The notes below the pieces were generated by a model. That model was not told the origin of the DNA. It made no database searches and was given only the letters and a program-made list of their open reading frames with translations. Position numbers and translations under genes: made by a program. This document shows, piece by piece, positions 10,499-48,385 of a stretch of 48,526 nt of DNA. Origin of the DNA: Pseudorhodobacter aquimaris. Lineage in GTDB: Bacteria > Pseudomonadota > Alphaproteobacteria > Rhodobacterales > Rhodobacteraceae. The DNA lies in NCBI RefSeq assembly GCF_001202025.1, contig NZ_LGHS01000047.1, forward strand, positions 1 to 48,526. Reading direction: 5' to 3'. Position 1 is the first letter of the stretch; each line of letters starts with the position of its first letter.

Positions 10499-10600
10499 AA
10501 TACCGATAAACGCCGCCAGATGTCAGGGCTTTGATGTGCTGCTTTGCAGCCCAGCTAAACAGATCGTCAGTTCCCAATTGCGATCAGCCTTTGACCCCGT

Positions 10601-10623
10601 GGCCCGCCCGGCAAGAGCGGGCC
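10601..10623. terminator. Hairpin between convergent genes
   Basis: GGCCCGC and GCGGGCC arms between the stops of the DUF924 gene (plus) and the dehydrogenase gene (minus). No strong T-run on either strand; possibly a bidirectional terminator. Confidence 0.4.
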
Positions 10624-10630
10624 CGCTAGG

Positions 10631-11386
10631 TTAGCGCGCCGTATAGCCACCATCGACCAAGTGATACGACCCGGTTATAAAGCTTGCACGATCCGACAGC
10701 AAAAACACGATCAGCGCCGCGACCTCTTCGGGCGTGCCAAGCCGGTTCAGGGCGTGCTCACCTTCGAGGTGCTTCAGCGTTGCGGCGTCCAGCGCGCTGC
10801 TTACCAGCGGCGTCATAATAAACCCCGGCCCCACGGAATTGACCCGCACGCCGGTCGCTGCATGCTCAAGCGCCGCATTTTTTGTCGCCCCCAGAACGCC
10901 ATGCTTGGCGCTGACATAGGGCGAGGACCCGGCAAAACCGACCGAACCAAGGATCGAGGCCACATTGACCACCGCACCCCCACCCGCCTTTTCAATCTCG
11001 GGGATGGCAAAACGCATCCCATAGAAAACGCCGGACAGGTTGATGTCGATCACCTTTTGCCACGCCTCGACATCATAGCTGCCAGTCGGCGCCGAGGGGC
11101 CACCGATGCCCGCGTTATTGACAATCCCGTGCAACGCGCCGGTCGTCTTGACCGCAAATTTCACCATCGCTTCGACCTCAGCGGCCTTCGCCACATCCAC
11201 GGTACAGGCATGGGCCTTGCCGCCCTTGCTCGCGATGTTTTTGACAATGCTGTCGGCATTGGCCCGGTCAAGGTCCGCGACAATCACGGTGGCACCACTC
11301 GTCGCGAGTTCCTCGGCGGTGGCAGCACCAATGCCCGACCCCCCACCTGTTACAATAATCGTTTTGCCGTCAAAACGCAGATCCAT
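10631..11386 (-). CDS. Short-chain dehydrogenase/reductase (SDR)
   Basis: A 251-aa classical SDR. The Rossmann motif is TGGGSGIG (residues 13-20), followed by the acidic D after VIVAD that suggests preference for NAD(H), NNAG near 90, the catalytic Tyr-Lys in YVSAK with an upstream Ser (SILGS), and a PG-FI-TPL segment after it. The C-terminus FITGSYHLVDGGYTAR is standard for the family. AAGGAG lies eight bases before ATG 11386. Substrate cannot be assigned; relatives are annotated as glucose 1-dehydrogenase or 3-oxoacyl-ACP reductase-like. It is convergent with the DUF924 gene and seems to be transcribed alone. Confidence 0.9.
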   Translation of the reverse strand: MDLRFDGKTIIVTGGGSGIGAATAEELATSGATVIVADLDRANADSIVKNIASKGGKAHACTVDVAKAAEVEAMVKFAVKTTGALHGIVNNAGIGGPSAPTGSYDVEAWQKVIDINLSGVFYGMRFAIPEIEKAGGGAVVNVASILGSVGFAGSSPYVSAKHGVLGATKNAALEHAATGVRVNSVGPGFIMTPLVSSALDAATLKHLEGEHALNRLGTPEEVAALIVFLLSDRASFITGSYHLVDGGYTAR

Positions 11387-11557
11387 GGCTTTTCTCCTTT
11401 GAGAACTGTGAATTACCGTATCAACATAGGGATGCGAGAGCCGATTTTCATCGCTGGCATCGTTTTATTTGTCAAATGAGATGCAGGCGCGGGTGTAATG
11501 TGGATCAGCGTCAGTGAGGCAATCCCAAAGCCGGGCGGAGTGATTTTGACGCAGAGC

Positions 11558-12883
11558 CTAAACCGATAGTTTCAGACGAGCTTCAAAACCCGATGCTTGG
11601 CCGGTGCGGGGTGATTTCAGGATCAACTCGCTTCCCAACCGGTCCGCAATCGCTGCGACAATCGCAAGGCCAAGACCGCTTCCCTCGGCACTTGTCCCCG
11701 CGCGCTCAAACCGGGCAGTAAGGCGGGCCAGCGTTTGCGCAGGAACAACCGGCCCCGCGTTTGCAATGATCAAAGTGCCGTCTGCCGTCAACTCAACCTC
11801 GACCGCGCTGCCTTCCAGTCCGTGACGCAGGGCATTTTCAATCAGGTTCCGGTAAAGGATGCCGAATGCATCGGGATCGAGGTCTGACATCACGGGCTGT
11901 TCCGGCAGCGTCAGCTTGATGCGATCAGGCGCAACCGTGCGGCCAATATCCGCAACTATGATACGCGCCACCGGGCGCAGGTCCGACGCGTGATCCAACC
12001 GGAGCTGCCCGCCTTCAGCACGGGCCAATTGCATCAGCCGCTCGGCCACGCGTGTCAGCCGCTTCAGTGTGGCCTCAATGTCAGTGGCCCTTTGCACGGT
12101 GCCAGGCTCACTGGTTTCGGACCGAAGGCGTTGTGCCTGTGCGATGGCCCCCGCAAGCGGGGTGCGCAATTCATGCGCGGCATTGGCGGCAAAGCTGCGC
12201 TCGGCATCAAAACTGGCTTTCAAGCGCTCAAAGACGTCGTTCAGTGTGGCCGCTACCGGGGCGATTTCCCAAGGCAGGCCTTTGGTCGGGACCGGCGACA
12301 GGTCACGCGCATCGCGTCCGCCAAGAGTTTTGCGGAACTCTCTCAGCGGGCGCAGGCTTGTCCGAACCGCCAGAAGAATGGCGAGCAGGGCTGCGGGAAT
12401 TACGACAAGCAGCGGCAGTGCAAGACCGATCTGGATGTTGCGTGCAACTGTGCTGCGGTGCTCCACGGGCTCCGCCACGGTAATCCGGATGCTGCCTTGC
12501 AGGGCGGCCTCGGTATAGAGCCTGTGGGTTGCAGTCTGGTGATACCCCACCCCGTCATAAGGGGGAAACACCGCAGCCTCTGCCGCGTGGGATTGCAACA
12601 GCATCCTGCCCTGTGCGTCACGGACGATATAGGTGAAGAATTCATCGTGGTCGCGGATAGTGGCCAGACGTTGCGGGGTATCATCCTCGTCGCGCCCAAG
12701 CACGTCCAGAACCGCAAGCGGCAGCAGGCGTTGTGCGGTTTCTTGCAGGGCGGAATCGAAGACCTCATCCATTTCATGCCGAAGCGCGACACTGGTCCCC
12801 CAAGCCGCTGCCACCCACAAAAGCGTCAGTAGAACGCCCAGCGACAGGGCCAGACGCGATTGCAGGCTGCGCGGCCACCTCAT
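11558..12883 (-). CDS. Two-component sensor histidine kinase
   Basis: A 441-aa membrane kinase of the QseC/TctE style. The N-terminal helix (LALSLGVLLTLLWVAAAWG) and a second helix (IGLALPLLVVIPAALLAILLA) flank a periplasmic sensor of about 125 residues. The phospho-acceptor His is in AANAAHELRTPLAG; the N box is NLIENALRHG and the G box GSGLGLAIV. The start overlaps the stop of the response regulator (ATGA at 12880-12883), so the two are translated together. The signal is unknown. The neighbouring ferric-reductase, PepSY and DUF2271 genes and the repeated operator boxes suggest it controls that redox locus (inference). Confidence 0.92.
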   Translation of the reverse strand: MRWPRSLQSRLALSLGVLLTLLWVAAAWGTSVALRHEMDEVFDSALQETAQRLLPLAVLDVLGRDEDDTPQRLATIRDHDEFFTYIVRDAQGRMLLQSHAAEAAVFPPYDGVGYHQTATHRLYTEAALQGSIRITVAEPVEHRSTVARNIQIGLALPLLVVIPAALLAILLAVRTSLRPLREFRKTLGGRDARDLSPVPTKGLPWEIAPVAATLNDVFERLKASFDAERSFAANAAHELRTPLAGAIAQAQRLRSETSEPGTVQRATDIEATLKRLTRVAERLMQLARAEGGQLRLDHASDLRPVARIIVADIGRTVAPDRIKLTLPEQPVMSDLDPDAFGILYRNLIENALRHGLEGSAVEVELTADGTLIIANAGPVVPAQTLARLTARFERAGTSAEGSGLGLAIVAAIADRLGSELILKSPRTGQASGFEARLKLSV

Positions 12884-13539
12884 GGAGTGCCCAGACGGTA
12901 GCCCATGCCGCGCTCGGTCTCAATCACGCTTGCGCCCAGCTTTTTGCGCAGGCGGCTGACATGAACTTCGATGGTGTTGCTTTCCACTTCTGCGTCAAAA
13001 GTATAAAGCTTTTCTTCAAGCTGCGGTTTGGACAACAATTGACCGGGGCGGGCCAGAAACGCCTCAAACAACGCCCATTCGCGGGCGGTCAGCAGGATCT
13101 GCTTGCCTTCGCTGCGGATGGTGCGCGACGCGATGTCGATGGTCAGCGCGCCGTGGCTGATGATCGGGTTGGGGTTGCCGGAATAGCGGCGCGCGACGGA
13201 CCCGATCCGTGCGGACAGCTCCGACAGATCAAAGGGTTTCACAAGGTAGTCATCCGCACCCGCATTCAGCCCCTCAATCCGGTCGGAAATCTGGTCCAGC
13301 GCGGTCAGGATAATCACCGGCGTCACATCGCCCCGCGCGCGCAAGGTTTTCAAAAACCCAATGCCGCGCCCATCCGGAAGCATCAGGTCCAGCAAAAGCA
13401 GATCATATGCCGCCGCTGCAACCGCATCGCCCGCCGCATCAAGCCGCGTGACCCAATCCACAGACTGGCCGTCGCCAGCGATCTGGTCGCGTACGGCAGA
13501 GCCCAAGACGGTGTCGTCCTCAATCAGCAGGATGCGCAT
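12880..13539 (-). CDS. OmpR-family response regulator
   Basis: A 219-aa response regulator. The receiver domain has acidic EDD at residues 7-9, phospho-acceptor Asp in LLLLDLMLPDG, Thr in ILTA and Lys in VKPFD. The C-terminal winged helix ends with the recognition segment VHVSRLRKKLG and GYRLG. It is divergent from the ferric-reductase gene. A direct-repeat box at 13583-13602 lies only 44 bp upstream of its start, with two further copies at 15241 and 16017; these are the best candidates for its own binding sites. Translationally coupled to the kinase downstream. Confidence 0.93.
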   Translation of the reverse strand: MRILLIEDDTVLGSAVRDQIAGDGQSVDWVTRLDAAGDAVAAAAYDLLLLDLMLPDGRGIGFLKTLRARGDVTPVIILTALDQISDRIEGLNAGADDYLVKPFDLSELSARIGSVARRYSGNPNPIISHGALTIDIASRTIRSEGKQILLTAREWALFEAFLARPGQLLSKPQLEEKLYTFDAEVESNTIEVHVSRLRKKLGASVIETERGMGYRLGTP

Positions 13540-13582
13540 GGTGGATGTTTCCTTTCACTATGACCCTTCATGATCCGTCTAC

Positions 13583-13602
13583 CTGACGCAACGCTGATGC
13601 TG
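13583..13602 (+). promoter_or_regulatory. Direct-repeat operator, copy 1
   Basis: CTGACGCAACGCTGATGCTG: CTGA occurs twice with an 11-bp period, one helical turn, as in OmpR/PhoB-type regulator sites. Related to 15241-15260 and 16017-16036. It lies between the divergent response regulator and the ferric-reductase side. Confidence 0.55.
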
Positions 13603-13682
13603 CCGAGACAAACGCTTCAGGATCTTGTCAGTTTCGCGGCGCATGAGTTGCAGCACAATGAACCCTGAGAGGAGTTTGACCC

Positions 13683-13772
13683 ATGAAGAAGACATTGACA
13701 ATTCTCGATCTTATGACGGTCTTTCCTGGTGGGGTGGGGTGGGGTGGCTTTGAGGCATCGGCCCCCGCGTGA
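13683..13772 (+). pseudogene. Remnant of a PepSY-type signal peptide ORF
   Basis: A 29-codon ORF with a good ribosome binding site (GAGGAG) and a start MKKTLTILDLMTVFPGG. This matches the first residues of the PepSY protein at 16110 (MKKTLTVLALLAALPAG). After residue 15 it runs into a tandem GGGGT repeat and stops. An operator box lies 100 bp upstream of its ATG, as for the two intact genes. It is probably a decayed paralogue whose promoter now serves the ferric-reductase gene; it could also be a leader peptide. Confidence 0.45.
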
Positions 13773-13807
13773 GGCCGATGCGCGGCAGGACAGGGAGTAG
13801 CGAGGCA

Positions 13808-15163
13808 ATGTCGGATGTAGTAGAACGCGCCAGCAATACCCGCGTGGCGTCAAACCTTCGATCCATCCCCGGGGTTCCTGCCGCCAGCAGCGCCGTGAAT
13901 GTGACCGGGCTCTTGCTGGTCGGACTGTCGTGCATTCTGGCGGGCGTTCTTGGCTTCGTCTCTTACGCGCCCTATGGTTTTGATGTGGCCATCGGAATCG
14001 CTGTTGGGGCCGCTGCCGTCGTCGCCATGAGCCTGACCCTGATCCTTGCGGCGCGCCCGCGCCTGCTGGAGCCTGCCTTTGGCGGGCTCGACCGCATGTA
14101 CCGGGTTCACAAATGGCTTGGCATATCGGCGCTGGTCCTGATGATCCTGCATGACCAGTTTGAACCCGACTTTGAGCGCACGGTCCGGGAGACCGGGTTG
14201 GGCGATTTCGCCAGCGACGCAGGCGAGTTCGCTTTCAATGCGCTGCTTGCGTTGATCGCGATCAGTTGGTTCCGACGGCTTCCGTTTGTCAGGCTGGAGA
14301 TTCCTTATCAGCTCTGGCGTTTCAGCCATCGCTTCATGGGCGTTCTTTTCGCTATCGTCGTATTTCACCAATTTTTCGTCGACCTGCCAACCGGGGTTGA
14401 TCCGTCGCTGTCAGTGCTTCTGAACGGGTTTGGAATCGCCGGACTGATCGCCTGGGTCCATACCGAGTTCATAGCCCCGCATCTGCGTCGCCGGGCGTTC
14501 ACAGTCAGTCGGGTCAGCCGACAGGGGGAGATTACAGCACTGACCCTGACACCCAAGGGGCGGGCCATGCGCTGGCGGCCGGGGCAGTTTGCCTTTGTCC
14601 GCGCGCCTGAGGCTGGGTTGTCAGAGCCGCACCCTTTCACAATTGCCAGCGCCGCGCGCCCTGATGGTACGCTGACACTGTATATACGGGCGCTCGGCGG
14701 CTGGACAAGGAGACTGCCCGACGCCCTGCGCGCGGGCATGAGCGTGCAGGTCGAAGGCCCCTACGGACGCTTCAATTTTCGCAAGGGCGGCACGCGGCAG
14801 ATCTGGCTGGCTGGCGGTATTGGCATCACGCCGTTTCTCGCTTGGGCAGAGAGCCTCGCGGAGACGGAGCGGCGCGAAATCCACCTCATTTACTGTGTCC
14901 GCACGCCGGAAGACGCAATCGGTCTGGAAACCCTGCAGGCTGCGGTCGGGCGCAATCCGCGCTTCAGCTATGAGGTGGTTGCGACTGCGCACGATGGGCG
15001 CTTGACAGGGGACCATGTGATCGGGTCGGTCCGCTTCCCGGTTGGGGAGGCCGAACTTTGGTTCTGCGGGCCGAAGGGCTTGAAGGATGGAGTCCTCAAG
15101 GATCTGAAAACCCGCGGCCAGACGCCGCGACGGGTGCGGTTTGAGCATTTTGAATTCGCATGA
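13808..15163 (+). CDS. Ferric-reductase-like transmembrane flavocytochrome
   Basis: A 451-aa membrane oxidoreductase from ATG 13808. The N-terminal half has about six helices with His residues positioned for haem binding (RVHKWLG, ILHDQF, FSHRFMG, VFHQFF), typical of the ferric-reductase-like domain. The C-terminal half is an FAD/NAD(P)H reductase: FAD motif HPFTIAS, then GGIGITPFLA for the nucleotide and FCGPKG near the end. It should pass electrons from cytoplasmic NAD(P)H through haem to an acceptor on the periplasmic side, such as Fe(III), Cu(II) or a partner protein. Upstream in-frame extension to 13769 exists but is unlikely. A strong terminator follows at 15206. Confidence 0.9.
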   Translation: MSDVVERASNTRVASNLRSIPGVPAASSAVNVTGLLLVGLSCILAGVLGFVSYAPYGFDVAIGIAVGAAAVVAMSLTLILAARPRLLEPAFGGLDRMYRVHKWLGISALVLMILHDQFEPDFERTVRETGLGDFASDAGEFAFNALLALIAISWFRRLPFVRLEIPYQLWRFSHRFMGVLFAIVVFHQFFVDLPTGVDPSLSVLLNGFGIAGLIAWVHTEFIAPHLRRRAFTVSRVSRQGEITALTLTPKGRAMRWRPGQFAFVRAPEAGLSEPHPFTIASAARPDGTLTLYIRALGGWTRRLPDALRAGMSVQVEGPYGRFNFRKGGTRQIWLAGGIGITPFLAWAESLAETERREIHLIYCVRTPEDAIGLETLQAAVGRNPRFSYEVVATAHDGRLTGDHVIGSVRFPVGEAELWFCGPKGLKDGVLKDLKTRGQTPRRVRFEHFEFA

Positions 15164-15205
15164 GATGCAGTTCATCAGATCGATAGGCCGCAAAACAGTG
15201 CCCGT

Positions 15206-15236
15206 AAGCCCCGCAGGTTCCCGGCGGGGCTTTGTC
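15206..15236 (+). terminator. Rho-independent terminator after ferric-reductase gene
   Basis: AAGCCCCGC and GGCGGGGCTT arms around CAGGTTCC-type loop, then TTTGT. It separates the reductase gene from the next operator at 15241. Confidence 0.7.
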
Positions 15237-15240
15237 ATTT

Positions 15241-15260
15241 CTGACAGCAAGCTGAAGCAA
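15241..15260 (+). promoter_or_regulatory. Direct-repeat operator, copy 2
   Basis: CTGACAGCAAGCTGAAGCAA: CTGA at 15241 and 15252, 11-bp period. Located 92 bp upstream of the ATG at 15333. Shares AAGCTGAAGCAA with copy 3. Confidence 0.6.
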
Positions 15261-15332
15261 TAATTGCGGCTTCGTCAGGTGCGGATCAGTTGGTGAGCGC
15301 AGATTGAGTACATCAGATGAAAGGAGAATATC

Positions 15333-15899
15333 ATGCATACGAACCTTGTTGTATCCGCAGTCCTGTCCGCACTGGCCACGACAGCAATGGCCGCACCCTT
15401 TGAGACGCCATATTCCCTGAGCGCCGTTCACGCGGATTTCCGGTCACAGCTTGAACAGGTCGCGAGCAAGTCCGGCGCGGTTGGCAGCACAGCTCGCGTC
15501 GCGGCCGACCTTATGGGGCCGCATAACGCAGCGCAGGAAAAGCTGATCTTGCCGATCCTTGGCTTTGCCGATGTCGCCGCCGGTGGGCAGATGCGGACGG
15601 ACCCGCAAATGCCTGAACGGTTGCAGGTGCTGGAGGCAGAGCTGGCGCAGATACACGACAGCGATGTGGATCTCGTTATCGCCCTTGTTGATCTCTACGC
15701 GACAGCGGATGAGGCCGGGCAACCCGAAACCGTGCGTCTTGCCGAGCGGATGATCTGGCATGAGGTAAACGATGTTCAGGTGCTTTACCCGGCGGCACTG
15801 CTTGTCGGCGCGTCGTTGCAAGCGCAGCTGGGCATCCCAAGCCCCGCCGGATTTCAAATAGATCCCGGCCCGCTTGATGGCCCAACCCCTTCCCGATGA
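15333..15899 (+). CDS. Secreted protein, possibly hemerythrin-like
   Basis: A 188-aa protein with a Sec signal (MHTNLVVSAVLSALATTAMA-AP) and a strong ribosome binding site (AAAGGAG). The mature part is all-helical by pattern. Spaced His and Glu residues (VHADFRSQL, GPHNAAQEKLILPILG, IHDSD, IWHEVNDVQVLYPAAL) resemble the metal ligands of hemerythrin HHE domains, particularly H-x-x-x-x-E in PHNAAQE followed by LILP. I do not recognise it with certainty; a diiron or metal-binding four-helix bundle is a hypothesis. It has its own operator-bearing promoter and its own strong terminator, and sits between two electron-transfer genes. Confidence 0.7.
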   Translation: MHTNLVVSAVLSALATTAMAAPFETPYSLSAVHADFRSQLEQVASKSGAVGSTARVAADLMGPHNAAQEKLILPILGFADVAAGGQMRTDPQMPERLQVLEAELAQIHDSDVDLVIALVDLYATADEAGQPETVRLAERMIWHEVNDVQVLYPAALLVGASLQAQLGIPSPAGFQIDPGPLDGPTPSR

Positions 15900-15975
15900 T
15901 GGGCGTTGGCAATCCGCATGAAACCGACAAGCGGAACTGAACCAGGGGTCCCGCCACATGGGCACACTTCAATGA

Positions 15976-16008
15976 AAGGCCGACTGTCGCAGTCGGCCTT
16001 CTTTTTTG
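15976..16008 (+). terminator. Strong rho-independent terminator
   Basis: AAGGCCGACTG and CAGTCGGCCTT form a perfect stem around a 3-base loop, followed by CTTTTTTG. Confidence 0.88.
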
Positions 16009-16016
16009 TCGCGTTC

Positions 16017-16036
16017 CTGACGCCAAGCTGAAGCAA
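16017..16036 (+). promoter_or_regulatory. Direct-repeat operator, copy 3
   Basis: CTGACGCCAAGCTGAAGCAA: CTGA at 16017 and 16028, 11-bp period. Located 93 bp upstream of the ATG at 16110, almost the same distance as copy 2 from its gene. Confidence 0.6.
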
Positions 16037-16109
16037 AAACCGCGTGGCTGTCAGCCCCCCCTCAGGTGGCCCCCCTAGGGTGATCTTATCAGGTGGAAGG
16101 AGATCCCCA

Positions 16110-16529
16110 ATGAAAAAGACTCTGACAGTCCTCGCTTTGCTTGCCGCACTTCCGGCGGGCATGGCGTTTGCCGATGATGATTGCTCTGTGCCGCTGGCCA
16201 ATTGGCAGCCGCGCGAGGCGGTAGAGCGCTTGGCCCAAGACAACGGCTGGACCCTGCGCCGCATCAAGATCGATGATGGCTGCTATGAGGTGAAGGGCCG
16301 CGATGCCACGGGGCGGGAAATAAAGGCCAAGATCGACCCGGCGACGCTGCGGGTGATCAAGTTGAAATACAAGAATGATGACCGGGATGACGATGATGAT
16401 GATGACGACGATGACAAGGATCGTGCGCGTCGTGACCGCAAGGACGGCGTAAGCCCTGCCGCACCAAGCACGGCCCCGCGCAACCCTTTGTTTGGCAACG
16501 GCGCGCCACCAACGGTTTTGGTGAAATAA
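16110..16529 (+). CDS. Secreted PepSY-domain protein with poly-Asp tract
   Basis: A 139-aa protein. The signal peptide MKKTLTVLALLAALPAGMAFA is followed by one PepSY-like domain: WQPREAVERLAQDNGW, then KIDDGCYEVKGRDATGREIKAKIDPATLRVI. Next is a highly acidic stretch containing ten consecutive Asp, then a basic and Pro-rich tail. AAGGAG precedes ATG 16110. Poly-Asp could bind Fe, Cu or Ca (inference). It is the first gene of a tight run (gaps 42 and 13 bp, then an overlap) with DUF2271, the PepSY-TM reductase and ApbE, and has an operator box upstream. It is probably a periplasmic electron-transfer accessory. Confidence 0.85.
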   Translation: MKKTLTVLALLAALPAGMAFADDDCSVPLANWQPREAVERLAQDNGWTLRRIKIDDGCYEVKGRDATGREIKAKIDPATLRVIKLKYKNDDRDDDDDDDDDDKDRARRDRKDGVSPAAPSTAPRNPLFGNGAPPTVLVK

Positions 16530-16571
16530 CCCCGCAGCCCGCCCCATCCCGGACCAAAAAGGAAAATCCCG

Positions 16572-17042
16572 ATGAAATCCCTACTTACAACGCTGGCGCT
16601 GACAACGGCGCTGACGCTTCCCGGCCTTGCTATGGCGCGGCCGGTCACGCTGACCACGCAACTGAGCAATTACGGCGGCGATGGTGCCTATCTTGCGCTT
16701 TACGTCACCGATTCATCGGGGGCCTATGCAGGCACGCTGTGGATGGCGGGTGGCAAGTCGAAATACTACGATAGCCTGAGCGACTGGTATCGTGCCACCG
16801 GCGGCGACCCGGCCCAGATCAACGGCATCACCGGGGCAAGTGTTGGCGCAGGCAGAACGCTGGAGATCACGCTGGATCTGGCCGACGCACTGTTTGACGC
16901 GGGCTATACCCTGCATATCGACGCCGCAGTCGAGGAGATGCGCAACAGCCCGAACGAGGTTGCGGTGCCGTTGACCACGGCCGGTGCCGGAACCGCCGTG
17001 AAAGGGCGTCGCTACGTCGCCAGCTTCACCTACGACATGTAA
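16572..17042 (+). CDS. DUF2271 periplasmic protein, probable flavinylated carrier
   Basis: A 156-aa protein with signal peptide MKSLLTTLALTTALTLPGLAMA. The mature domain has the DUF2271 features: YLALYVTDSSGAYAGTLWM, then KYYDSLSDWYRATGG. At residues 84-90 it reads NGITGAS, which matches the [ST]GA[ST] attachment motif that ApbE modifies with FMN in NqrC/RnfG-type domains; Ser90 would be the attachment residue. DUF2271 proteins are known to cluster with ApbE and PepSY-TM proteins in extracytosolic flavin-based electron-transfer loci, exactly as here. Actual flavinylation is inferred from motif and context. Confidence 0.85.
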   Translation: MKSLLTTLALTTALTLPGLAMARPVTLTTQLSNYGGDGAYLALYVTDSSGAYAGTLWMAGGKSKYYDSLSDWYRATGGDPAQINGITGASVGAGRTLEITLDLADALFDAGYTLHIDAAVEEMRNSPNEVAVPLTTAGAGTAVKGRRYVASFTYDM

Positions 17043-17055
17043 GAAAGGCAGGGCC

Positions 17056-19260
17056 ATGATCCGCATGTTTCACCGTTGGCCGGGTCTGTTGGCCCTTGCC
17101 CTGATAACCGTTCTGGCGCTGAGCGGCGCTGTGCTGTCGGTGTTTCCAGCTGCCGAGCGTTTGACTGCGCCGCAGGTCGAGGCCGGACTGACCGTGGCCG
17201 ACCTCGCGGCGCGCATCCAGACTGCCTATCCGGGGGTTGAACAAATCCGGCGCGCGCCGTCGGGCCGGATCACTGTCTATTGGTTCGAGGGCGGCACACC
17301 GGGGGCGGCGGTCGTCGACCCCGCCACCGGCCAAGGTGTCAAATCGGCGGATCCCAATCGGTTTGAACGCTGGATGACCAACTTGCACCGTTCGTTGTTC
17401 CTGGGCGATGGTGGACGTATCGCCATGGCAGCAGGGGCGGCGGCAATGCTGGTGCTGGCGCTGTCTGGCGCGGTGCTTGTGGTGCGGCGTGCCGGCGGCT
17501 GGCGGCGCTGGTTCGCGCCCTTGCGCGGGCCGCTTTCGGGGCGGCTGCATGTGGAAATTGCCCGTATCGCCATTGTCGGCCTTGTGCTGTCCTCGCTTAC
17601 GGCGCTGTGGATGGCCGCCTCCACTTTTGGTTTTCTTCCCGATGGCGGCAGCGCGCTGAGCTATGCAGCGCCAAGTGGTCAGACGGGCATGATGCCGGGT
17701 GCAATTGATCTGCTCGGGCAGACCCCGGCGTCAACGCTGCGCGAGCTGAGCTTTCCCTATCCGGATGATGCCACCGATGTCTTTACGCTCAAGACCGACA
17801 GCGGCACCGGATATCTCGACCAAGGTACCGGCGCAGTGCTTGGCTGGGCCGATCTGACCGGGTGGGAGAGCGCGTCGGAGACCATCGTGATGCTGCATAC
17901 GGGACAGGGCGCTGCCGTTCTTGGGCTGGTGCTGGGGCTGATGGCGCTTGGCGTGCCGGTGATGGGGGTAACGGGTGTAGTGATTTGGCTGGCGGCGCGA
18001 CGCGGCAGGCCGCAGATCCGGGGCAATCAACCCGCCGGGCAGGCGCAGACGATCCTGCTGGTCGGCAGCGAGGGCGGCAGCACCTGGGGCTTTGCGGCAA
18101 CGCTGCACCGCGCGCTGACCGAGGCCGGGCAAACTGTTCATGCCGCACCGATGTCGGCTTTTGATCCAAAACGCTATGCGCGTGCGGACCGTATTATTGT
18201 GCTTGCCGCGACCTATGGCGATGGGGCTGCACCTGCCTCGGCCAGAGGTTTTCTTGACCGGCTTGCGCAGGGTGACGCCGCCCCCGCAATCCCGCTCGCG
18301 GTGCTTGGCTTTGGCGATCGCAGTTTTCCGCAATATTGCACCTTTGCAAAAGCGGTAACTGCTGTCGCCGAGGCCAAAGGCTGGCAACAGCTTCTTGCCT
18401 TCGACACCGTCGACCGCCAATCGCCGCAGGATTTTGCCCGCTGGGGCCAGGCGCTTGGGGCCGCTATGGGGATCAATCTCGATCTCACCCACCAACCGGT
18501 GGTGCCGCAATCGCAGCCTTTGACGCTGATTTCTCGCCGCGTTTACGGGGCCGAGGTGCAGGCCCCGACTGCAATCCTGCGCTTTGCGCTGCCAAAGGCG
18601 TCGCTGTGGCAGCGCCTGACGGGCCGTGGCTTTGGTCGGTTTCAGGCGGGCGATCTTCTGGGCATCCTGCCCGAGGGTTCAACGCTGCCCCGGTTCTATT
18701 CGCTGGCCTCGGGGCGGCGCGACGGCTTTGTTGAGGTTGTGGTCAGAAAGCTGCACGGCGGCCTTTGCTCCGGCCAGCTCATGGCGCTTGAACCCGGCGA
18801 CAGCGTGGCCGCCTTCCTGCACCCCAATCCCAGTTTCCACGCGGACCGCAGCGCTGCACCGCTAATTCTGATCGGGGCGGGCACCGGCATTGGCCCGCTT
18901 GCAGGCTTCACCCGTGCCAATGCCCGCAAGCGCCCCATCCACCTGTTCTTTGGCATGCGACACCCCGACAGCGACTTCCTTTATGACGCGGAGTTCGGGG
19001 TCTGGCAGGCGCAGGGTCACCTGACCCGACTGATCACAGCCATATCACGCGGGGCCAGGCCGCATTATGTTCAGGACGCGTTGCGCGCCGAGGGGGCGGA
19101 GGTTGCCCGACTGATCCAGAGCGGCGCGCGCGTGATGGTTTGCGGCGGACGAGAGATGGCCGTCGGGGTCGCTGACGCGCTGGCGGATATCCTCGCCCCC
19201 GTTGGGCTGACGCCAATCGCATTGAAAGCAGAGGGGCGTTATGTCGAAGATGTCTACTGA
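17056..19260 (+). CDS. PepSY-TM / flavodoxin / FNR fusion reductase
   Basis: A 734-aa fusion. Residues 1 to about 330 are a PepSY-associated transmembrane domain with roughly four helices and conserved His (MFHRWPGLL, LHRSLFLGDGGR, LHVEIAR, MLHTGQG), probably haem ligands. Residues about 335-480 are a flavodoxin-like FMN domain (ILLVGSEGGSTWGFA, AATYGDGAAP, LGFGDRSFPQYC). Residues about 500-734 are a CysJ/FNR-like FAD-NADPH module (PRFYSLAS, GAGTGIGPLAGF, MVCGG, aromatic C-terminal Tyr). It should carry electrons from NADPH through FAD and FMN to membrane haem and then to the periplasm, with the DUF2271 protein as likely acceptor. Its 3' end overlaps apbE by 20 bases. Confidence 0.9.
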   Translation: MIRMFHRWPGLLALALITVLALSGAVLSVFPAAERLTAPQVEAGLTVADLAARIQTAYPGVEQIRRAPSGRITVYWFEGGTPGAAVVDPATGQGVKSADPNRFERWMTNLHRSLFLGDGGRIAMAAGAAAMLVLALSGAVLVVRRAGGWRRWFAPLRGPLSGRLHVEIARIAIVGLVLSSLTALWMAASTFGFLPDGGSALSYAAPSGQTGMMPGAIDLLGQTPASTLRELSFPYPDDATDVFTLKTDSGTGYLDQGTGAVLGWADLTGWESASETIVMLHTGQGAAVLGLVLGLMALGVPVMGVTGVVIWLAARRGRPQIRGNQPAGQAQTILLVGSEGGSTWGFAATLHRALTEAGQTVHAAPMSAFDPKRYARADRIIVLAATYGDGAAPASARGFLDRLAQGDAAPAIPLAVLGFGDRSFPQYCTFAKAVTAVAEAKGWQQLLAFDTVDRQSPQDFARWGQALGAAMGINLDLTHQPVVPQSQPLTLISRRVYGAEVQAPTAILRFALPKASLWQRLTGRGFGRFQAGDLLGILPEGSTLPRFYSLASGRRDGFVEVVVRKLHGGLCSGQLMALEPGDSVAAFLHPNPSFHADRSAAPLILIGAGTGIGPLAGFTRANARKRPIHLFFGMRHPDSDFLYDAEFGVWQAQGHLTRLITAISRGARPHYVQDALRAEGAEVARLIQSGARVMVCGGREMAVGVADALADILAPVGLTPIALKAEGRYVEDVY

Positions 19261-20224
19261 CCTTATGCGCCATGCGCTGAACGGCCCCACCATGGGCACG
19301 CGCTGGTCGGCGTTGTTTCATGCAGCCACAGGATTTGATCCTGCGTCCGTGCAGGCGGACCTTCAGGCGGCGGTGGCGGAGGTGGATGCGCAAATGTCCA
19401 CCTGGAATCCCGCCAGCGATCTGATGCGTCTGAACGCGGCACCTGTCGATGAATGGGTGGCAGTTCCGGCGCGGCTGATGACGGTTTTGCGCCTTGGCTT
19501 GAAAATCGGGCGGGCGACTGATGGGGCGTTTGATATTGGCATGGGCGACGCCGTGGCAGCGTGGGGCTTTGGTCCGCAATGCGCAACACCCGAAGACATC
19601 CGCGCCGCGATGAGCGCGCCGCGCTTGCCTGCGCATGCGGTGTTGGACCTTGATGCAGCGGGGCGGGCGCGCAAGCGTGCCCCGATCACGCTGGACCTGA
19701 ACGGGATTGCAAAGGGGTATGGTGTCGACCGACTTAATGAGGTGCTGACCGGTTTCGGCATCACCTCTGCCCTTGTCGGCATTGATGGTGAGATGCGGGC
19801 GCTTGGGTTCAGGCCAGACGGCACCCCCTGGACGATCGCGGTAGAGGCCCCCGACATGGCGCGCCGCACGCCGCATTCCATCTTGGCGCTGCAAGACGCC
19901 GCCGTGGCGACGTCGGGTGATTACCGTCACTGGGTCAATGTGCAGGGACGCCGCCTGTCGCATACCATGCACCCAACCAAAGGCGCGCCATTGGTGGCCC
20001 CGCCTGCCTCGGTCACCGTCATTGCCCAGACCTGTGCCGAGGCCGATGCCTGGGCGACCGCGCTGATGGTTATGGGCTTGGACGATGGTGCGACGCTTGC
20101 CCGACAATTTAGGCTCGACGCGTTGTTTTTGCTGCGTGACAATACGGATAGCATTCGAAGTATGGCTGTTGGGCGCATGTTTGGCCAAGCGGTGGATGGC
20201 TTGGCAAAAGAGGGTGACTGGTGA
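19241..20224 (+). CDS. apbE: FAD:protein FMN transferase (ApbE)
   Basis: A 327-aa flavin transferase that splits FAD and attaches FMN to a Thr or Ser of a target protein. Family motifs: PTMGTRWS (17-23), AFDIGMGDAVAAWGFG, DLNGIAKGYGVDR (152-164), ALVGIDGEMRALG, ATSGDYRHW and HTMHPTKGAP. The last Mg-binding and catalytic region (CAEADAWATALMVMG) is complete. ATG 19241 lies inside the end of the upstream reductase gene; a second ATG at 19250 is possible. Unlike most periplasmic ApbE proteins it shows no signal peptide or lipobox. The likely substrate is the DUF2271 protein two genes upstream. Confidence 0.93.
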   Translation: MSKMSTDLMRHALNGPTMGTRWSALFHAATGFDPASVQADLQAAVAEVDAQMSTWNPASDLMRLNAAPVDEWVAVPARLMTVLRLGLKIGRATDGAFDIGMGDAVAAWGFGPQCATPEDIRAAMSAPRLPAHAVLDLDAAGRARKRAPITLDLNGIAKGYGVDRLNEVLTGFGITSALVGIDGEMRALGFRPDGTPWTIAVEAPDMARRTPHSILALQDAAVATSGDYRHWVNVQGRRLSHTMHPTKGAPLVAPPASVTVIAQTCAEADAWATALMVMGLDDGATLARQFRLDALFLLRDNTDSIRSMAVGRMFGQAVDGLAKEGDW

Positions 20225-20265
20225 GAAGCTGGCGAACACGGACGGTTGTAAGGCGCTGAAAACCC

Positions 20266-20296
20266 CCGCCCCGGTCAGATAAGTAAACCGGGGCGG
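20266..20296. terminator. Hairpin between convergent apbE and pentahaem cytochrome
   Basis: CGCCCCGGT and ACCGGGGCG form a 9-bp stem at 20267-20295. No clear T-run; possibly a shared terminator for the convergent genes. Confidence 0.4.
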
Positions 20297-20336
20297 CGAT
20301 TGGCAGCCTTGCCGCAAGCATCAACGGTAGCGCAGG

Positions 20337-21446
20337 TTACGGTCTGACCATCCCGGCCATATCAACCTGTACCGCCTTGCCCAGATCGGCCAAGCTGTCT
20401 TGCAACAGTTGGATCGCGTAATGCGGGTTATGGGTATAGGCGCCGGGGTCTTTGGCGATGAACTGATAGTTATAGGCCGCTTTCAGCAGGCGCGGTGTCC
20501 AGCTTTGATAGCGGTTCGGAAAGATCGCCTCGCCGGGGGTGATTGCGCCATTTCCATCCGTGTCGATGAAGAAATACGGGAAGGCGTGCGGGTCATAGAC
20601 AACCGGCGTCCCCGCAACTTCGGCGGCGTATTTCTGGATCGCGGCCCCCAGCATGGCGTGCAATGTTGTGATCGAATGGGCAATACCCTGCGCCGTGTCG
20701 CCTGTTCCGGTCACGTCCATTTCTGTGCTGCGAATATCGGAATATTTGGTCGCCCCCTTGTGGCAGGTCACGCAGGTGTCAATCGGTTTTACCTTCAGGC
20801 TGTGCTGGTTGTGGCACGACAGGCAGGTCGATGGTTCCTCTTTCACATGGATGAAAATGCCGGCATAGGTCTGGCCCTCATACTGATAGCCGCCCGCCGC
20901 CACGCTGCCCATCTGGGTTGCCGCCGCCGCTTTGTAATGGACGTTGATGAAGGTCAGATCGCCCGCGACCACATCATCCTCGCGCCCCGCAACCGCTGCC
21001 GTTACATCCGTACCCGAGGCGCGACCCTGATGGCAGGTGGCGCAGATCGCCTCTTTGCCCAGCCCATCAACACGCGCGCCCGAGGGGAACACCACGCTTT
21101 GCAGCGCCATGGATTTCGGGTTGTGGCAGGTCACGCAATCCACGGTCGAGCCCAGCGGCTGCGGCTGCTCGATTACATTCACCGCGCGCAGATCCGTGCC
21201 CAGATAGTCGATGATCCCGCGGCTGGTATGGCAGGTCGAACATTCCTTTGGCACCATGCGGATGTCTTCATCATTCCAGTGCTTGAAGGCTTCGGCGCTG
21301 CGATCGGCATGGGGCGAGGACAGCCACGCCTCAGTGATTTTCCCCAGATCGGGCTTTTTCTTTTCCTGTGCTGTGGCCGAGAAGCCAACTGCGATCAGGC
21401 CGCATAAGATGATGCTAGGCGCGAGTGTTTTGGTTATCCAATGCAT
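20337..21446 (-). CDS. Periplasmic pentahaem cytochrome c with EF-hand-like loop
   Basis: A 369-aa protein. The chosen ATG 21446 has a strong AGGGGGGA ribosome binding site and gives a clean signal peptide (HWITKTLAPSIILCGLIAVG ... ATAQ); the frame is open further upstream without support. Five CxxCH haem motifs are present in order: CSTCH, CVTCH, CATCH, CLSCH, CVTCH, with many additional His as distal ligands. After the haems there is DTDGNGAITPGEAIF, an EF-hand-type calcium loop. It belongs to the broad cytochrome c3/doubled-CXXCH style, but I do not recognise a specific enzyme. It converges on apbE and is a plausible periplasmic electron sink or wire for the flavin system. Confidence 0.85.
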   Translation of the reverse strand: MHWITKTLAPSIILCGLIAVGFSATAQEKKKPDLGKITEAWLSSPHADRSAEAFKHWNDEDIRMVPKECSTCHTSRGIIDYLGTDLRAVNVIEQPQPLGSTVDCVTCHNPKSMALQSVVFPSGARVDGLGKEAICATCHQGRASGTDVTAAVAGREDDVVAGDLTFINVHYKAAAATQMGSVAAGGYQYEGQTYAGIFIHVKEEPSTCLSCHNQHSLKVKPIDTCVTCHKGATKYSDIRSTEMDVTGTGDTAQGIAHSITTLHAMLGAAIQKYAAEVAGTPVVYDPHAFPYFFIDTDGNGAITPGEAIFPNRYQSWTPRLLKAAYNYQFIAKDPGAYTHNPHYAIQLLQDSLADLGKAVQVDMAGMVRP

Positions 21447-21593
21447 ATTGATCCCCCCCTGGGAAAGCCACTTTATGGGCATTTTGTTTTCAAGAAGGTG
21501 GTCGGGATAAATTTCAATGTCATTGCGGCAGATCATTGCAGGCTGGAATATCATCAAACATTTATGGACTGGACACGCCGCGCTACGAGTCGA

Positions 21594-21622
21594 AAAGCCC
21601 GCACCAATCTGGCGCGGGCTTT
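21594..21622 (-). terminator. Terminator of the HMA-ATPase operon
   Basis: On the minus strand AAAGCCCGC pairs with GCGGGCTTT around a loop of about 11 bases, ending in TTTTCG. It lies 22 bp past the ATPase stop. Confidence 0.65.
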
Positions 21623-21643
21623 CGGGTCTTGATGGTGGTGTCG

Positions 21644-23563
21644 CTATGCCACGGCTGTTTTGGCCTTGGCTTCAGCCCTGTGTGCTTTCGTAGCGGCTGG
21701 CACCCGCAGCAGGCGCATGGCGTTGAGGATGACGATCAGCACCGACAGTTGGTGAACCAGCATGCCACCGGCCATGTGGATCGAGCCGGAATAGACCCCA
21801 AACAGCAGCCCCACGACCGTCAGCACCGCGATCACAAGGTTCTGGCGCATGTTGGCCAAGGTGGCGCGGGCGATTTCCATCGCCTCGGCGATCTTGCCCA
21901 GATCGTCGGTCATCAGCGCGATATCCGCCGTCTCGATGGCGATGTCGCTGCCCGACGCACCCATGGCGATGCTGATATCAGCCGCCGCCAGCGCCGGTGC
22001 GTCGTTGATACCGTCGCCGACCATCGCCACGTGCAGGCCTTCGGCGCGCATTGCCTGAATGCGCTCCAGCTTGTCGTCGGGCATCATCCCGGCATGCACT
22101 TCGTCGACGCCGACCGCCGCTGCAATCGCCTCGGCTGCCGGGCGCTGATCGCCGGTCAGCATCACCACGCGGTGCACCCCAAGGGCGTGCAACCGGTCGA
22201 TCATCGGCTTGGCACTGGCGCGCGCCATATCGGCCAGACCAAGCAGACCCACCACTTCGCCATTGCGCGCGACGATCACCACCGTATGTCCCAGCCCGTG
22301 CAGCCGGGCTATGCCATCTTTCGCTTGCGCGTTGAAGGCGATCTTCAGGTGATCGAACAACCGGTGGCTGCCGACGGCGATCTCGTGACCGTCGTGGCGG
22401 GCAATCAGGCCCATGCCAGCGATCTCCTCCAGCGAGGTGGCGGTTGGCAGCGGGCCCTGCTTGCGCGCAGCCTCGATGATCGGACGGCCCAGCGGGTGGT
22501 TCGATCCAGTCTCGGCGATACCTGCCCAGAGCAGCACATCGGCCTTGTTTTGGCCTGCCAGCGCGATGACTTCGGCCAGACGCGGCTGGCCTTCGGTCAG
22601 CGTGCCGGTTTTATCCAGTGCCAGCGCGGTGATGCGCCCGGCGTTCTCCAGATGCTCGCCGCCCTTGATCAAGATACCGGCGCGGGCCGCACGTCCGATC
22701 CCGGCCACGACTGACACCGGGGTCGAGATAACCAGCGCGCCAGGGCAACTGACCACCAGCAGCGTCAACGCCAGCTCGACGTTGCGCGTGACGATATAGC
22801 TGACCACCGCCATCACGAACACGCCCGGCGTATACCAGCGCCCGAAGGTTTCTATCATCCGCTGCGCCGGGGCCTTGGCCTCTTGCGCCTCCTCAACACG
22901 GGTGATGATCCGCGCCAGCGTGGTATCGGCGCCAACGCCGGTGGCACGCAGGTGCAGCAGACCGTTTTCGGCCAGAGTTCCGGCGAAGACCTTTGAGCCG
23001 GGAGATTTTTCGGCCGGGATCGGCTCGCCGGTGATCGAGGCCTCATTGACCGCGGCGGTGCCCTCAACCAGCTCGCCGTCGACCGGCAGGCGCTCACCGG
23101 CCCTGACCAGAACGGTTTCACCAAGTTGCACCTCATGGGCGGCCACTTGAACCGTCTCACCATTGCGCAACACGGTTGCAGTCACAGGCGCAGCATCAAT
23201 CAGCGCCTTCAGCGCGCCGCGTGTGCGGCTCATCGTGCGGGACTCAAGCCAGGCGCCCAGCATGAACAGGAAGGTGACCGCGGCGGATTCCCAGTGGTTG
23301 TTGATGAACAACGCCCCGGTGGCCGCCACGATCACCAGCAATTCGATGCTGAGATGGCGCAGCTTCAGTGACGCCCAGGCCCGCAGGGCAATGTCATACC
23401 CGGCCAGCACGGCAGCAATGGTCATCAGCGACGCCCAAGGGGCGGCCAGTCCAAAGCCATACCAAGCGACCAGTGCCGCAGTGATGAATACGCCGCTGGC
23501 GATGGTCAGCCATTTACGCCGATCGGCGGGATGTCTGTAAATATCCATGAGCCCGGAAAACAT
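21644..23563 (-). CDS. P1B-type heavy-metal ATPase with CPG motif
   Basis: A 639-aa P-type ATPase without an N-terminal HMA domain; that domain is supplied by the separate upstream gene. Motifs: TGEP near 178, the membrane metal site SCPGALVIS with CPG at residues 273-275 instead of the common CPC or SPC, DKTGTLTEG, the HP pair in SNHPLG, and GDGINDAPAL. The last helix has MLVHQLSVLIVILNAMRLL, with His where other groups have Asp or HEGGT. All catalytic motifs are intact. Relatives are usually called Zn/Cd/Pb or unspecified heavy-metal exporters; substrate is uncertain. AAGGAGAG precedes ATG 23563. It is followed by a strong terminator. Confidence 0.9.
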   Translation of the reverse strand: MFSGLMDIYRHPADRRKWLTIASGVFITAALVAWYGFGLAAPWASLMTIAAVLAGYDIALRAWASLKLRHLSIELLVIVAATGALFINNHWESAAVTFLFMLGAWLESRTMSRTRGALKALIDAAPVTATVLRNGETVQVAAHEVQLGETVLVRAGERLPVDGELVEGTAAVNEASITGEPIPAEKSPGSKVFAGTLAENGLLHLRATGVGADTTLARIITRVEEAQEAKAPAQRMIETFGRWYTPGVFVMAVVSYIVTRNVELALTLLVVSCPGALVISTPVSVVAGIGRAARAGILIKGGEHLENAGRITALALDKTGTLTEGQPRLAEVIALAGQNKADVLLWAGIAETGSNHPLGRPIIEAARKQGPLPTATSLEEIAGMGLIARHDGHEIAVGSHRLFDHLKIAFNAQAKDGIARLHGLGHTVVIVARNGEVVGLLGLADMARASAKPMIDRLHALGVHRVVMLTGDQRPAAEAIAAAVGVDEVHAGMMPDDKLERIQAMRAEGLHVAMVGDGINDAPALAAADISIAMGASGSDIAIETADIALMTDDLGKIAEAMEIARATLANMRQNLVIAVLTVVGLLFGVYSGSIHMAGGMLVHQLSVLIVILNAMRLLRVPAATKAHRAEAKAKTAVA

Positions 23564-23627
23564 ATGTTCTCTCCTTTCAAGATAAGCCCCACCGCGTGGA
23601 AAGCGGTGGGGTGGAGTGGTAGAAGGA

Positions 23628-23858
23628 TCAGAACGCCGAAGGTTTGGCTGTGTAGCCGGTCTTGGCGATGGAGTTGACCAAAGCCGCCACGTCGGTGAGC
23701 GCCGGGTCGTGGTCGACCTCGATCCGCCCGCTCGCGAATTTTACCTCGGCATTGGTTACGCCGGGCAACGCCAGCAGCGCCTTTTCGATCTTCGGCACGC
23801 AGGAGGGGCAGGAAAGCTCGTCACTGCGCAGTTTCGTGCGGATTGTCGTATCGGTCAT
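23628..23858 (-). CDS. HMA-domain heavy-metal chaperone
   Basis: A 76-aa HMA domain with metal motif LSCPSC near residue 16 and the family end NSIAKTGYTAKPSAF. It has GAAGGGA before ATG 23858. It is the first gene of a two-gene operon with the CPG-type ATPase (64-bp gap), so it acts as a detached N-terminal metal-binding domain or chaperone for that pump. It is divergent from the LysR gene with only 96 bp between them. Confidence 0.9.
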   Translation of the reverse strand: MTDTTIRTKLRSDELSCPSCVPKIEKALLALPGVTNAEVKFASGRIEVDHDPALTDVAALVNSIAKTGYTAKPSAF

Positions 23859-23954
23859 GGTGAAATCCCTTCAGTGGATTGTGGTTGCGTCTGGATCAGA
23901 TATAGCCTCTCATTTTGCGCACATGGAGTGGCGAAATCGGAAAGGTGTCCTTGC

Positions 23955-24851
23955 ATGAATGCACAGCTTGCCAATTGGGACGATCTGCGGGTGTTTCTGG
24001 CCGTCGCGCGGGCGGGCAGCCTGTCGGGGGCGGCGCGCAGCCTTGGCGTCAACCATTCCACGGTGTTCCGGCGGGTCGCGGGCCTTGAGGAAACGCTGGG
24101 TGTGCGGCTGTTCGACCGGTTGCCGACCGGCTATGCGCTGACCCCAGTGGGCGAGGAAACGCTGGGTATCGTCGAGCGGATCGAGGACGATGTCACCGCG
24201 CTGGACCGCACCGTCACCGGACAGGATTTGCGCCTCAGCGGCACAGTGCGGATCACCGCGATCGACATGCTGGCCTTCTGGTTGCTGCCGGATCACCTTC
24301 GGCGGTTTCGTGAAACACATTCGGGGATCGAGGTGGAAATTGTGGTGGGCAACGAGGCCCTCAACCTGTCGCGCCGGGAAACCGATATAGCCCTGCGGAT
24401 CGGCAACACCCCGCCTGAAACCTTGGTGGGACGAAAAGTCGGACAGCTGGAGTTTGCGATCTACGGCGCACCCGACTATTGCGCGGCGCACCCGGGCGCA
24501 GACCTCGCACAGCAGGACTGGATCGGCTTTGATAGCGCCCATGCACCGCTGACGCGCCAGTTGGAAAAGCTTCTGCCCGGCATGCGCCCGGCGGTGCGAT
24601 CAAACTCGGTGGCCTGCGCAGTGCGCCTGGCCAAGGCCGGGCTTGGTCTTGCACTGCTGCCCTGCGCCATTGCTGAACTCAAACCCGACCTGATCCGCGT
24701 CGCAGAACTGCCTGAGTCCTTCGGCCTTGATCTGTGGCTGCTGACCCACGAAGATCTGCGCCACACCGCCCGAATCCGCGCCGTGCTGGAATTCCTGACA
24801 CCGGCACTGGCGGAAAGCCTAAAAAAATGTACCAAAGGGCCGGAAATCTGA
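23955..24851 (+). CDS. LysR-family transcriptional regulator
   Basis: A 298-aa LysR regulator. ATG 23955 begins MNAQLANWDDLRVFLAVARAG, directly followed by the winged helix (SGAARSLGVNHSTVFRRVAGLE) and the family wing LFDRLPTGYALTPVGEE. The C-terminal substrate-binding domain is complete to about residue 290. AAAGG lies 11 bases before the start. An in-frame upstream extension to 23616 overlaps the divergent operon and is rejected. Divergent arrangement with the HMA/ATPase operon suggests it controls that operon. The effector is unknown; few LysR proteins sense metals, so the link is inference. Confidence 0.9.
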   Translation: MNAQLANWDDLRVFLAVARAGSLSGAARSLGVNHSTVFRRVAGLEETLGVRLFDRLPTGYALTPVGEETLGIVERIEDDVTALDRTVTGQDLRLSGTVRITAIDMLAFWLLPDHLRRFRETHSGIEVEIVVGNEALNLSRRETDIALRIGNTPPETLVGRKVGQLEFAIYGAPDYCAAHPGADLAQQDWIGFDSAHAPLTRQLEKLLPGMRPAVRSNSVACAVRLAKAGLGLALLPCAIAELKPDLIRVAELPESFGLDLWLLTHEDLRHTARIRAVLEFLTPALAESLKKCTKGPEI

Positions 24852-48338: not shown

Positions 48339-48385
48339 GGCTCATAACCTGAAGGTCGTAGGTTCAAATCCTACCCCCGCAACCA
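48339..48385 (+). other. attR: displaced 3' half of tRNA-fMet
   Basis: Begins GGCTCATAACCTGAAGGTCG, identical to the anticodon arm of the complete tRNA, and ends CCCGCAACCA. The T-stem is GTAGG/CCTAC rather than GTTGG/CCAAC: two paired changes that keep the stem intact. It has no 5' half, so it is not a gene. The 140 bases beyond it hold nothing I recognise. Confidence 0.85.

Follow-up and report, generated by a model that had tools for sequence, protein, structure and literature searches.

Clusters in which a PepSY_TM membrane protein is encoded beside a DUF2271 protein and the flavin mononucleotide (FMN) transferase ApbE have been described as PepSY-like flavinylation clusters (Meheust et al. 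2021, PMC8238504). In the section of that study devoted to them, 3220 such clusters are counted, of which 108 carry a PF01794 (MsrQ-like) gene, 167 carry VIT1 and 1500 carry DUF4198, a companion that is frequent but not obligatory. A second point of comparison is FoxB of Pseudomonas aeruginosa, which has two bis-His haems (PMC13038864). We analyzed a contig of Pseudorhodobacter aquimaris (NZ_LGHS01000047.1, assembly GCF_001202025.1), the whole 48,526 bp of which are referred to here as the window. A cassette spanning positions 11558-20224 belongs to the described class, as its PepSY_TM (PF03929) gene adjoins genes for ApbE and DUF2271. Judging from its sequence, this set of genes, which lies on a mobile island, probably serves to transfer electrons out of the cell interior and past the inner membrane by way of flavin and haem proteins. 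We favor, with moderate confidence, the reading of the locus as a mobile, signal-controlled electron-export cassette to which a pentahaem cytochrome has been recruited as an outlet to an oxidized metal.

The kinase and regulator genes of the cassette lie on the minus strand and the remaining genes on the plus strand, in the order ferric-reductase-like flavocytochrome, helical protein, PepSY_2 protein, DUF2271 protein, PepSY_TM-flavodoxin-FNR fusion and ApbE. Pfam searches confirmed the domains that an initial annotation, made from the sequence alone, had assigned to the flavocytochrome, PepSY, DUF2271, fusion and ApbE genes. The NOX-like flavocytochrome (13808-15163, +), with Ferric_reduct, FAD and NAD domains, occupies a position that we call the slot. 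The DUF2271 protein (16572-17042, +; E 1.5e-34) has a signal-like N-terminus and, as had been noted, a flavinylation-type motif, TGAS at residues 87-90, with S90 as the motif residue. The fusion gene (17056-19260, +; PF03929 E 3e-32) encodes 734 residues and is overlapped by 20 bases by apbE (19241-20224, +; E 4.5e-77). No DUF4198 domain was found among the window cassette genes scanned with Pfam. A remnant of 29 codons (13683-13772, +), reading MKKTLTIL... and then a stop, marks a first PepSY gene that was lost from this cassette, and an intact counterpart is present in a second copy in the same genome (L003:8340-8657, on contig C8). The remaining PepSY_2 protein (16110-16529, +; E 6.5e-28, from a query that ran from 16104 before the gene start was placed at 16110) has a signal-like N-terminus, an Asp run and an LFGNGAPP tail. 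It had been called acidic, a description that holds for one stretch only, because over its whole length 27 Asp and Glu residues face 25 Lys and Arg despite the Asp run. Small Asp-run proteins like this one recur in other cassettes (e.g., L060:7543-7998). An LFGxGxPP tail ends 20 of 122 PepSY matches and 12 of 18 non-PepSY matches; the single non-PepSY Asp-run protein scanned had no Pfam match.

That the locus encodes a transmembrane electron-transfer system based on flavin and haem, as first proposed, is well supported: the DUF2271 motif and the predicted haem-ligand positions were invariant in the relatives compared. His 6, 111, 165 and 281 of the fusion are present in all 90 aligned sequences, its membrane half gave a profile match to FoxB (PDB 7abw, E 3.3e-6), and His 6 and 111 align with FoxB His residues. 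The fusion sequence thereby presents the four conserved, membrane-proximal His residues, predicted to be haem ligands, of a FoxB-type protein, and its reductase half resembles the diflavin reductases CysJ and P450 reductase in both sequence and fold. In the slot flavocytochrome, the His pairs 101/115 and 174/187 were invariant among 25 aligned slot sequences. Its best PDB match was 8qt6 (E 3e-39), which we take to be SpNOX, and it combines PF01794, two spaced His pairs and FAD and NAD(P) domains, as NOX proteins and ferric reductases do. The [ST]GA[ST] motif was kept in 90 of 90 DUF2271 sequences. Signal peptides were judged from hydropathy alone: 87 of the 90 DUF2271 sequences reached a value of 1.6 over 12 residues within the first 40, as did none of 86 cassette ApbE sequences (highest value, 1.53).

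In the export pathway that we favor, the cytosolic half of the fusion would accept electrons from NADPH (or NADH), first on FAD and then on FMN; two bis-His haems in the PepSY_TM half would carry them through the membrane, to be received by FMN bound covalently at S90 of DUF2271, an exported protein. A second, parallel route from NAD(P)H to the periplasm would be provided by the slot protein, which in the window is the NOX-like flavocytochrome. The pentahaem cytochrome, presumably recruited from a lineage linked to NQR, would take electrons from one or both routes and deliver them to a terminal acceptor that is most likely an oxidized periplasmic metal, with Fe(III) the first candidate and Cu(II) the second. 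We infer cofactor loading, the direction of flow, the hand-over to the cytochrome and the acceptor; metal reduction by the cassette is plausible.

Relatives of the cassette were compared in 292 genomes of the order Rhodobacterales, drawn as a sample and not a complete set, with neighborhoods extending at most 8-9 kb on each side. Fusion matches were found in 166 of these genomes and were full length in 44, including P. aquimaris itself (counted by eye); G166, G205 and G243, with fragmentary fusion matches only, were left out of the neighborhood set. All 48 neighborhoods from outside the P. aquimaris genome had DUF2271 and ApbE matches, and 43 had both genes of a two-component system (TCS); of the remaining five, two (L034 and L039) are truncated where their contigs begin, and three (L049, L075 and L081) are without these genes. 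A second set comprised the best 80 of 429 relatives, leaning to close ones, from which ten with short flanks were dropped. In the 70 loci of this set, PepSY, DUF2271 and ApbE matches were universal, TCS genes were present in 69 and a second PepSY or acidic gene in 61. Their slot held cytochrome b561 in 29 cases, a NOX-like protein in 17 and nothing recognized in 24. The last figure is an upper limit, because L174, in which our queries found no slot gene, has a cytochrome-b-like entry in its list of open reading frames (ORFs; seen by eye). Where enough downstream DNA was available (n = 59), a partner P-type ATPase gene followed in 28 loci and a VIT gene in 27. By sequence, then, these cassettes have a distinct layout, with a divergent TCS, small PepSY proteins, an exchangeable membrane-cytochrome slot and, frequently, genes for a P-type ATPase and VIT. 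A second cassette in the P. aquimaris genome, on C8, is likewise followed by a partner ATPase and VIT, with ORFs nearby that look by eye like genes for plasmid replication and partition.

Relatives of the cassette are also carried on plasmids: 97 of 72,556 plasmid records matched the fusion at E <= 1e-60, and 70 of these were typed as conjugative. A single genus, Pseudosulfitobacter, accounts for 38 of the 97; the others include Rhizobium, Shinella, Cupriavidus and Enterobacterales. Stretches from Klebsiella oxytoca and Marinobacter (L117, L119) carry the TCS, ferric reductase, PepSY, DUF2271 and fusion genes, in the same order as in the window, and then VIT. In these two plasmid cassettes ApbE was neither annotated nor matched, suggesting that a host ApbE may serve.

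The sensor histidine kinase gene (11558-12883, -; 2CSK_N, HisKA and HATPase_c by Pfam) is QseC/PmrB-like, and the OmpR-type response regulator gene (12880-13539, -; Pfam) is PmrA/QseB-like. This is a resemblance of type only, since both scores fall below the curated NCBIfam cut-offs for equivalogs (kinase against QseC, 186.2 bits with a cut-off of 475; regulator against PmrA, 201.5 bits with a cut-off of 330). The divergent promoters of these loci have in common the sequence CTGAC-N6-CTGAAG, an 11-base direct repeat that is a candidate response-regulator box. In the window it occurs with one mismatch in the divergent promoter (13583-13599, +), and exactly at 13615-13631 (-), facing the regulator gene, at 15241-15257 (+), 92 bases 5' of the helical-protein gene, and at 16017-16033 (+), 93 bases 5' of the PepSY gene. 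Terminator-like hairpins lie just before the box at 15241 (15215-15232) and after the helical-protein gene (15976-16000, +; 11 pairs); nine such hairpins were found in the region against 7.1 expected, and position and length alone speak for the one at 15976-16000. With one mismatch allowed, 266 box sites lay between the regulator and DUF2271 genes of 86 mutually related loci (161.5 kb), as against 45 in the other 1.48 Mb, nine times as much DNA. A reversed-pattern control gave none inside the cassettes and 25 outside, and at least one box was present in 84 of the 86 loci. Since these loci also supplied the divergent promoters used to define the box, only the internal sites and the specificity within the P. 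aquimaris genome are independent evidence. That genome has nine exact boxes (reversed control, none): three in the window cassette, three in the C8 cassette and three elsewhere. The last three all lie inside ORFs and were set aside as regulon members. Because a box and a preceding terminator-like hairpin are found at both the helical-protein and the PepSY genes, the cassette seems to be built of units, each with its own box, which would give a simple reason for the exchange of slot genes. The regulator presumably binds the candidate box, which offers a direct route to the regulon and its signal.

The pentahaem cytochrome gene (20337-21446, -) is convergent with apbE and is best described as associated with the cassette. 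The identification as a c-type cytochrome with five CXXCH motifs was borne out, and all five are kept in 43 of 44 relatives. Cytochrome matches were found in 43 of the 292 order genomes, that of P. aquimaris included, and, in a class-wide sample, in two of 289 (P. aquimaris and one genome of the same family). The 42 other loci in the order sample place this cytochrome beside an nqrA-F-like operon in 32 cases (L102-L109, L115, L203, L204 and L210-L230), beside a ferric-reductase flavocytochrome in nine, and beside neither in one, the C64 locus of the P. aquimaris genome; a fragmentary match in G289 was left out. An ApbE match accompanied 31 of the 32 NQR-linked loci; one operon was scanned for Pfam domains. 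The NQR is of a divergent kind, with the flavin motif present in NqrC in all 32 loci and in none of 31 matched NqrB segments. NqrA (PF05896) exceeded its cut-off in 91 of the 292 genomes, of which 31 had a weak match (E 3e-24 or weaker) beside a cytochrome match, and the 60 with strong NqrA had no cytochrome match (by eye). Four further copies on plasmids of Shinella, Nitratireductor (Hyphomicrobiales) and, in two cases, Rhodobacterales all stood beside NQR genes.

The cytochrome gene flanks a PepSY cassette in four records and in two arrangements. That of the window is shared by a close relative, L123, from a Pseudotabrizicola metagenome-assembled genome (94% identical DNA), and in L174 and a Defluviimonas plasmid (L244) the cytochrome gene lies on the other side of the TCS. 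In a FastTree phylogeny, from which L230 was dropped as short, the cassette-linked cytochromes and that of C64 formed one clade (support 1.0) next to the NQR-linked ones (0.89), and the flavocytochrome-linked ones formed another (1.0); deep support was weak. The C64 locus shares the sequences that flank the window cassette and retains a trace of the fusion gene (70% identical), the end of apbE and an open cytochrome gene that is 92% identical. As the fusion-gene trace and the apbE end remain, C64 looks like a copy that lost its cassette, and its interpretation as an empty site predating insertion was rejected.

All four records that join cassette and cytochrome also have the gene for the helical protein (15333-15899, +), broken in L123 (L123:7258-7461); it is rare otherwise (five of the 70 loci from the best 80 of 429). 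This protein of unknown family has a hydrophobic N-terminus, and its AlphaFold model is a helical bundle (mean pLDDT 74). We found no Pfam match up to E 0.1, no NCBIfam or PDB sequence match, and no PDB fold match at E <= 0.001; its initial designation as hemerythrin-like was therefore set aside as unproven. H33, E69, E103, H143 and D147 are shared by all six sequences compared, H64 by five and H108 by three.

The mobility proposed for the locus was corroborated by the ends of the window. ARAGORN placed a tRNA-Met(cat) at 111-187, whose 3' half plus three bases (141-190, +; attL-like) is repeated directly at 48339-48388 (+; attR-like, with no complete tRNA at the site) with 47 of 50 positions matching; the runner-up ungapped match to the repeat within the window reached only 26 of 50. 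A tyrosine integrase (44774-46171, -; Phage_integrase and Arm-DNA-bind_3) completes the combination typical of tRNA islands, namely, an integrase and direct repeats, one of them in a tRNA 3' end. On the basis of this far-end repeat and the integrase, the window is close to one predicted integrative island of ~48.2 kb. Next to the cytochrome gene, on its 5' side and on the same strand, are genes for a heavy-metal P-type ATPase (21644-23563, -) and an HMA metal-binding protein (23628-23858, -). The window as a whole contains three P-type ATPase genes, one of which encodes heavy-metal-binding domains, and a multicopper oxidase gene. At 3709-6041 (-), a gene for a YHS/HMBD metal P-type ATPase reads as two ORFs that overlap (4386-6041 and 3709-4437), reflecting either a broken gene or a sequencing error. 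The island also has two genes for N6/N4 methylases alongside one for a ResIII helicase (30200-38860, -), a RES-domain gene adjoining an Xre/MbcA/ParS-type antitoxin gene (38969-40068, -) and, at its end, a GmrSD-type gene (46342-48012, +). An Rfam search of 10500-24000 gave no match.

Several observations weigh against the export reading. The pentahaem gene was absent from all 48 sampled cassette neighborhoods of the order and was rejected as a core cassette gene; no box with up to two mismatches was found in the four pentahaem promoter stretches tested; the gene is intact at C64 beside traces of a cassette and can therefore be kept without one; and P-type ATPase matches occurred in 5 of 14 other cytochrome loci examined (L101, L102, L105, L107 and L111). 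The predicted structure of the fusion is of moderate quality (pLDDT 76, pTM 0.48), and its 50 listed fold matches, which are diflavin reductases and fusions related to them, do not include FoxB, so that the link to FoxB comes from the sequence profile. A gene that would point to a particular substrate was not found. VIT proteins and P-type ATPases generally export metal from the cytosol, which makes the genes that often follow the cassette a poor fit with simple metal uptake. Finally, ApbE is without an evident signal peptide and DUF2271 has one, so periplasmic flavinylation is not assured; in the published demonstration of covalent FMN on another DUF2271 protein, both proteins were expressed without signal peptides (PMC8238504). 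The path put forward in the initial annotation, from NADPH over flavins and membrane haem to DUF2271 and on to the pentahaem cytochrome or a metal ion, is supported in outline and is reasonable as far as DUF2271; for the step to the cytochrome the support is indirect, from a cytochrome family found mostly beside membrane flavin modules, and the missing box and the 48 neighborhoods count against it. Control by the TCS likewise has support for the cassette, with its divergent TCS genes and boxes, but not for the cytochrome gene on the other strand, and a single co-regulated pathway is not supported.

Each of these cytochrome observations would also fit a gene that belongs to the ATPase-HMA unit, with which it shares its strand, and that lies beside the flavin cassette by chance. 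We consider this improbable, since 41 of the 42 other loci are beside flavin membrane modules (in a census that did not search for ATPases), as are all four further plasmid copies, and since the cytochrome gene flanks the cassette on the opposite side of the TCS in L174 and L244. A more serious competitor, though still rather unlikely, is a plain iron-uptake reductase, acting on periplasmic Fe(III) or ferric siderophores to supply Fe(II) for uptake, with the pentahaem cytochrome and the ATPases as bystanders. The relevant sections of published work lend it weight: the Caulobacter operon CCNA_03155-03159 is under iron and Fur control and its mutants are less fit when EDTA is present (PMC3751524, PMC11870441), FoxB, which the membrane part of the fusion matches, is a ferrisiderophore reductase (PMC13038864), and Meheust et al. 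favor iron assimilation for PepSY-like clusters and interpret VIT1 likewise (PMC8238504). Control that looks like a two-component box, the lack of DUF4198 among the cassette genes scanned, and the metal-export-type ATPases that often follow the cassette argue against it. A role in handling copper or another toxic metal, in which the cassette would keep periplasmic metal reduced for export or oxidase assembly, seems to us quite unlikely as well. The multicopper oxidase and the P-type ATPase genes of the window suggest such a role, and CrpH, a PepSY_TM protein, is a proposed copper reductase (PMC13038864); the multicopper oxidase, however, is not part of the cassette. In the C8 copy, the partner ATPase shows a TPCPL motif (by eye) and not the CPC motif of the Cu exporter class, and partner ATPases recur with VIT, a family of Fe/Mn transporters.

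If the export reading is extended to all contexts of the cytochrome, one pentahaem family would be a common periplasmic outlet plugging onto three unrelated NAD(P)H-driven modules, the divergent NQR, the NOX-type flavocytochrome and the PepSY/DUF2271 cassette; the divergent NQR would not reduce quinone but send its electrons to the periplasm, and an alternative input to the same cytochrome would spread with mobile islands. We offer this wider proposal tentatively, as one that may well not hold; if true, Rhodobacterales have a modular, horizontally moving electron-export pathway, to metal or extracellular acceptors. The findings tie a mostly uncharacterized PepSY/DUF2271/ApbE class to a candidate box, cytochrome exchange, plasmids, an integrative island and a multihaem cytochrome, and make testable both the signal and acceptor of such clusters and whether flavinylated modules pass electrons to multihaem cytochromes.

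The initial view of the locus as an uncharacterized variant needs qualification, as its core is already described (PMC8238504) and its layout is distinct. In the open-licence literature we found nothing on PepSY/ApbE with a two-component system, on PepSY with cytochrome b561 and a response regulator, or joining a pentaheme cytochrome and nqr, and a single review that touches on nqrA and multiheme proteins in Rhodobacter; among the listed open-licence papers that combine two of the topics flavinylation, PepSY and conjugative plasmids, none is by its title on this cassette. The signal-controlled plug-in layout and the neighboring pentahaem cytochrome, with kin beside other electron-moving systems, look new. 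In common with PepSY-like clusters, the cassette has a PepSY_TM protein, DUF2271 with [ST]GA[ST], ApbE and a NAD-binding domain on the PepSY protein; relative to those clusters as they are described in that section, it differs in TCS control with a common box, own-box units, the exchangeable b561/NOX slot, extra small PepSY/acidic proteins, an ApbE without evident signal peptide, the lack of DUF4198, and carriage on a tRNA island and plasmids (PMC8238504). The fusion is like FoxB in its PepSY_TM membrane part with aligned His residues, but at 734 residues, compared with 382, it adds a flavodoxin-FNR half. The Caulobacter CCNA_03155-03159 operon similarly unites DUF2271, ApbE, a flavoprotein/haem reductase and the PepSY family, but is Fur-regulated and has DUF4198, with no two-component system mentioned in the passages that describe it (PMC3751524, PMC11870441). 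Finally, the RNF of Methanosarcina acetivorans resembles the present case in joining a membrane flavin module of the RNF/NQR kind to a multihaem c cytochrome; that module is an archaeal RNF, whereas the partner of the pentahaem cytochrome described here is a divergent NQR, a flavocytochrome or the PepSY cassette (PMC12174285).

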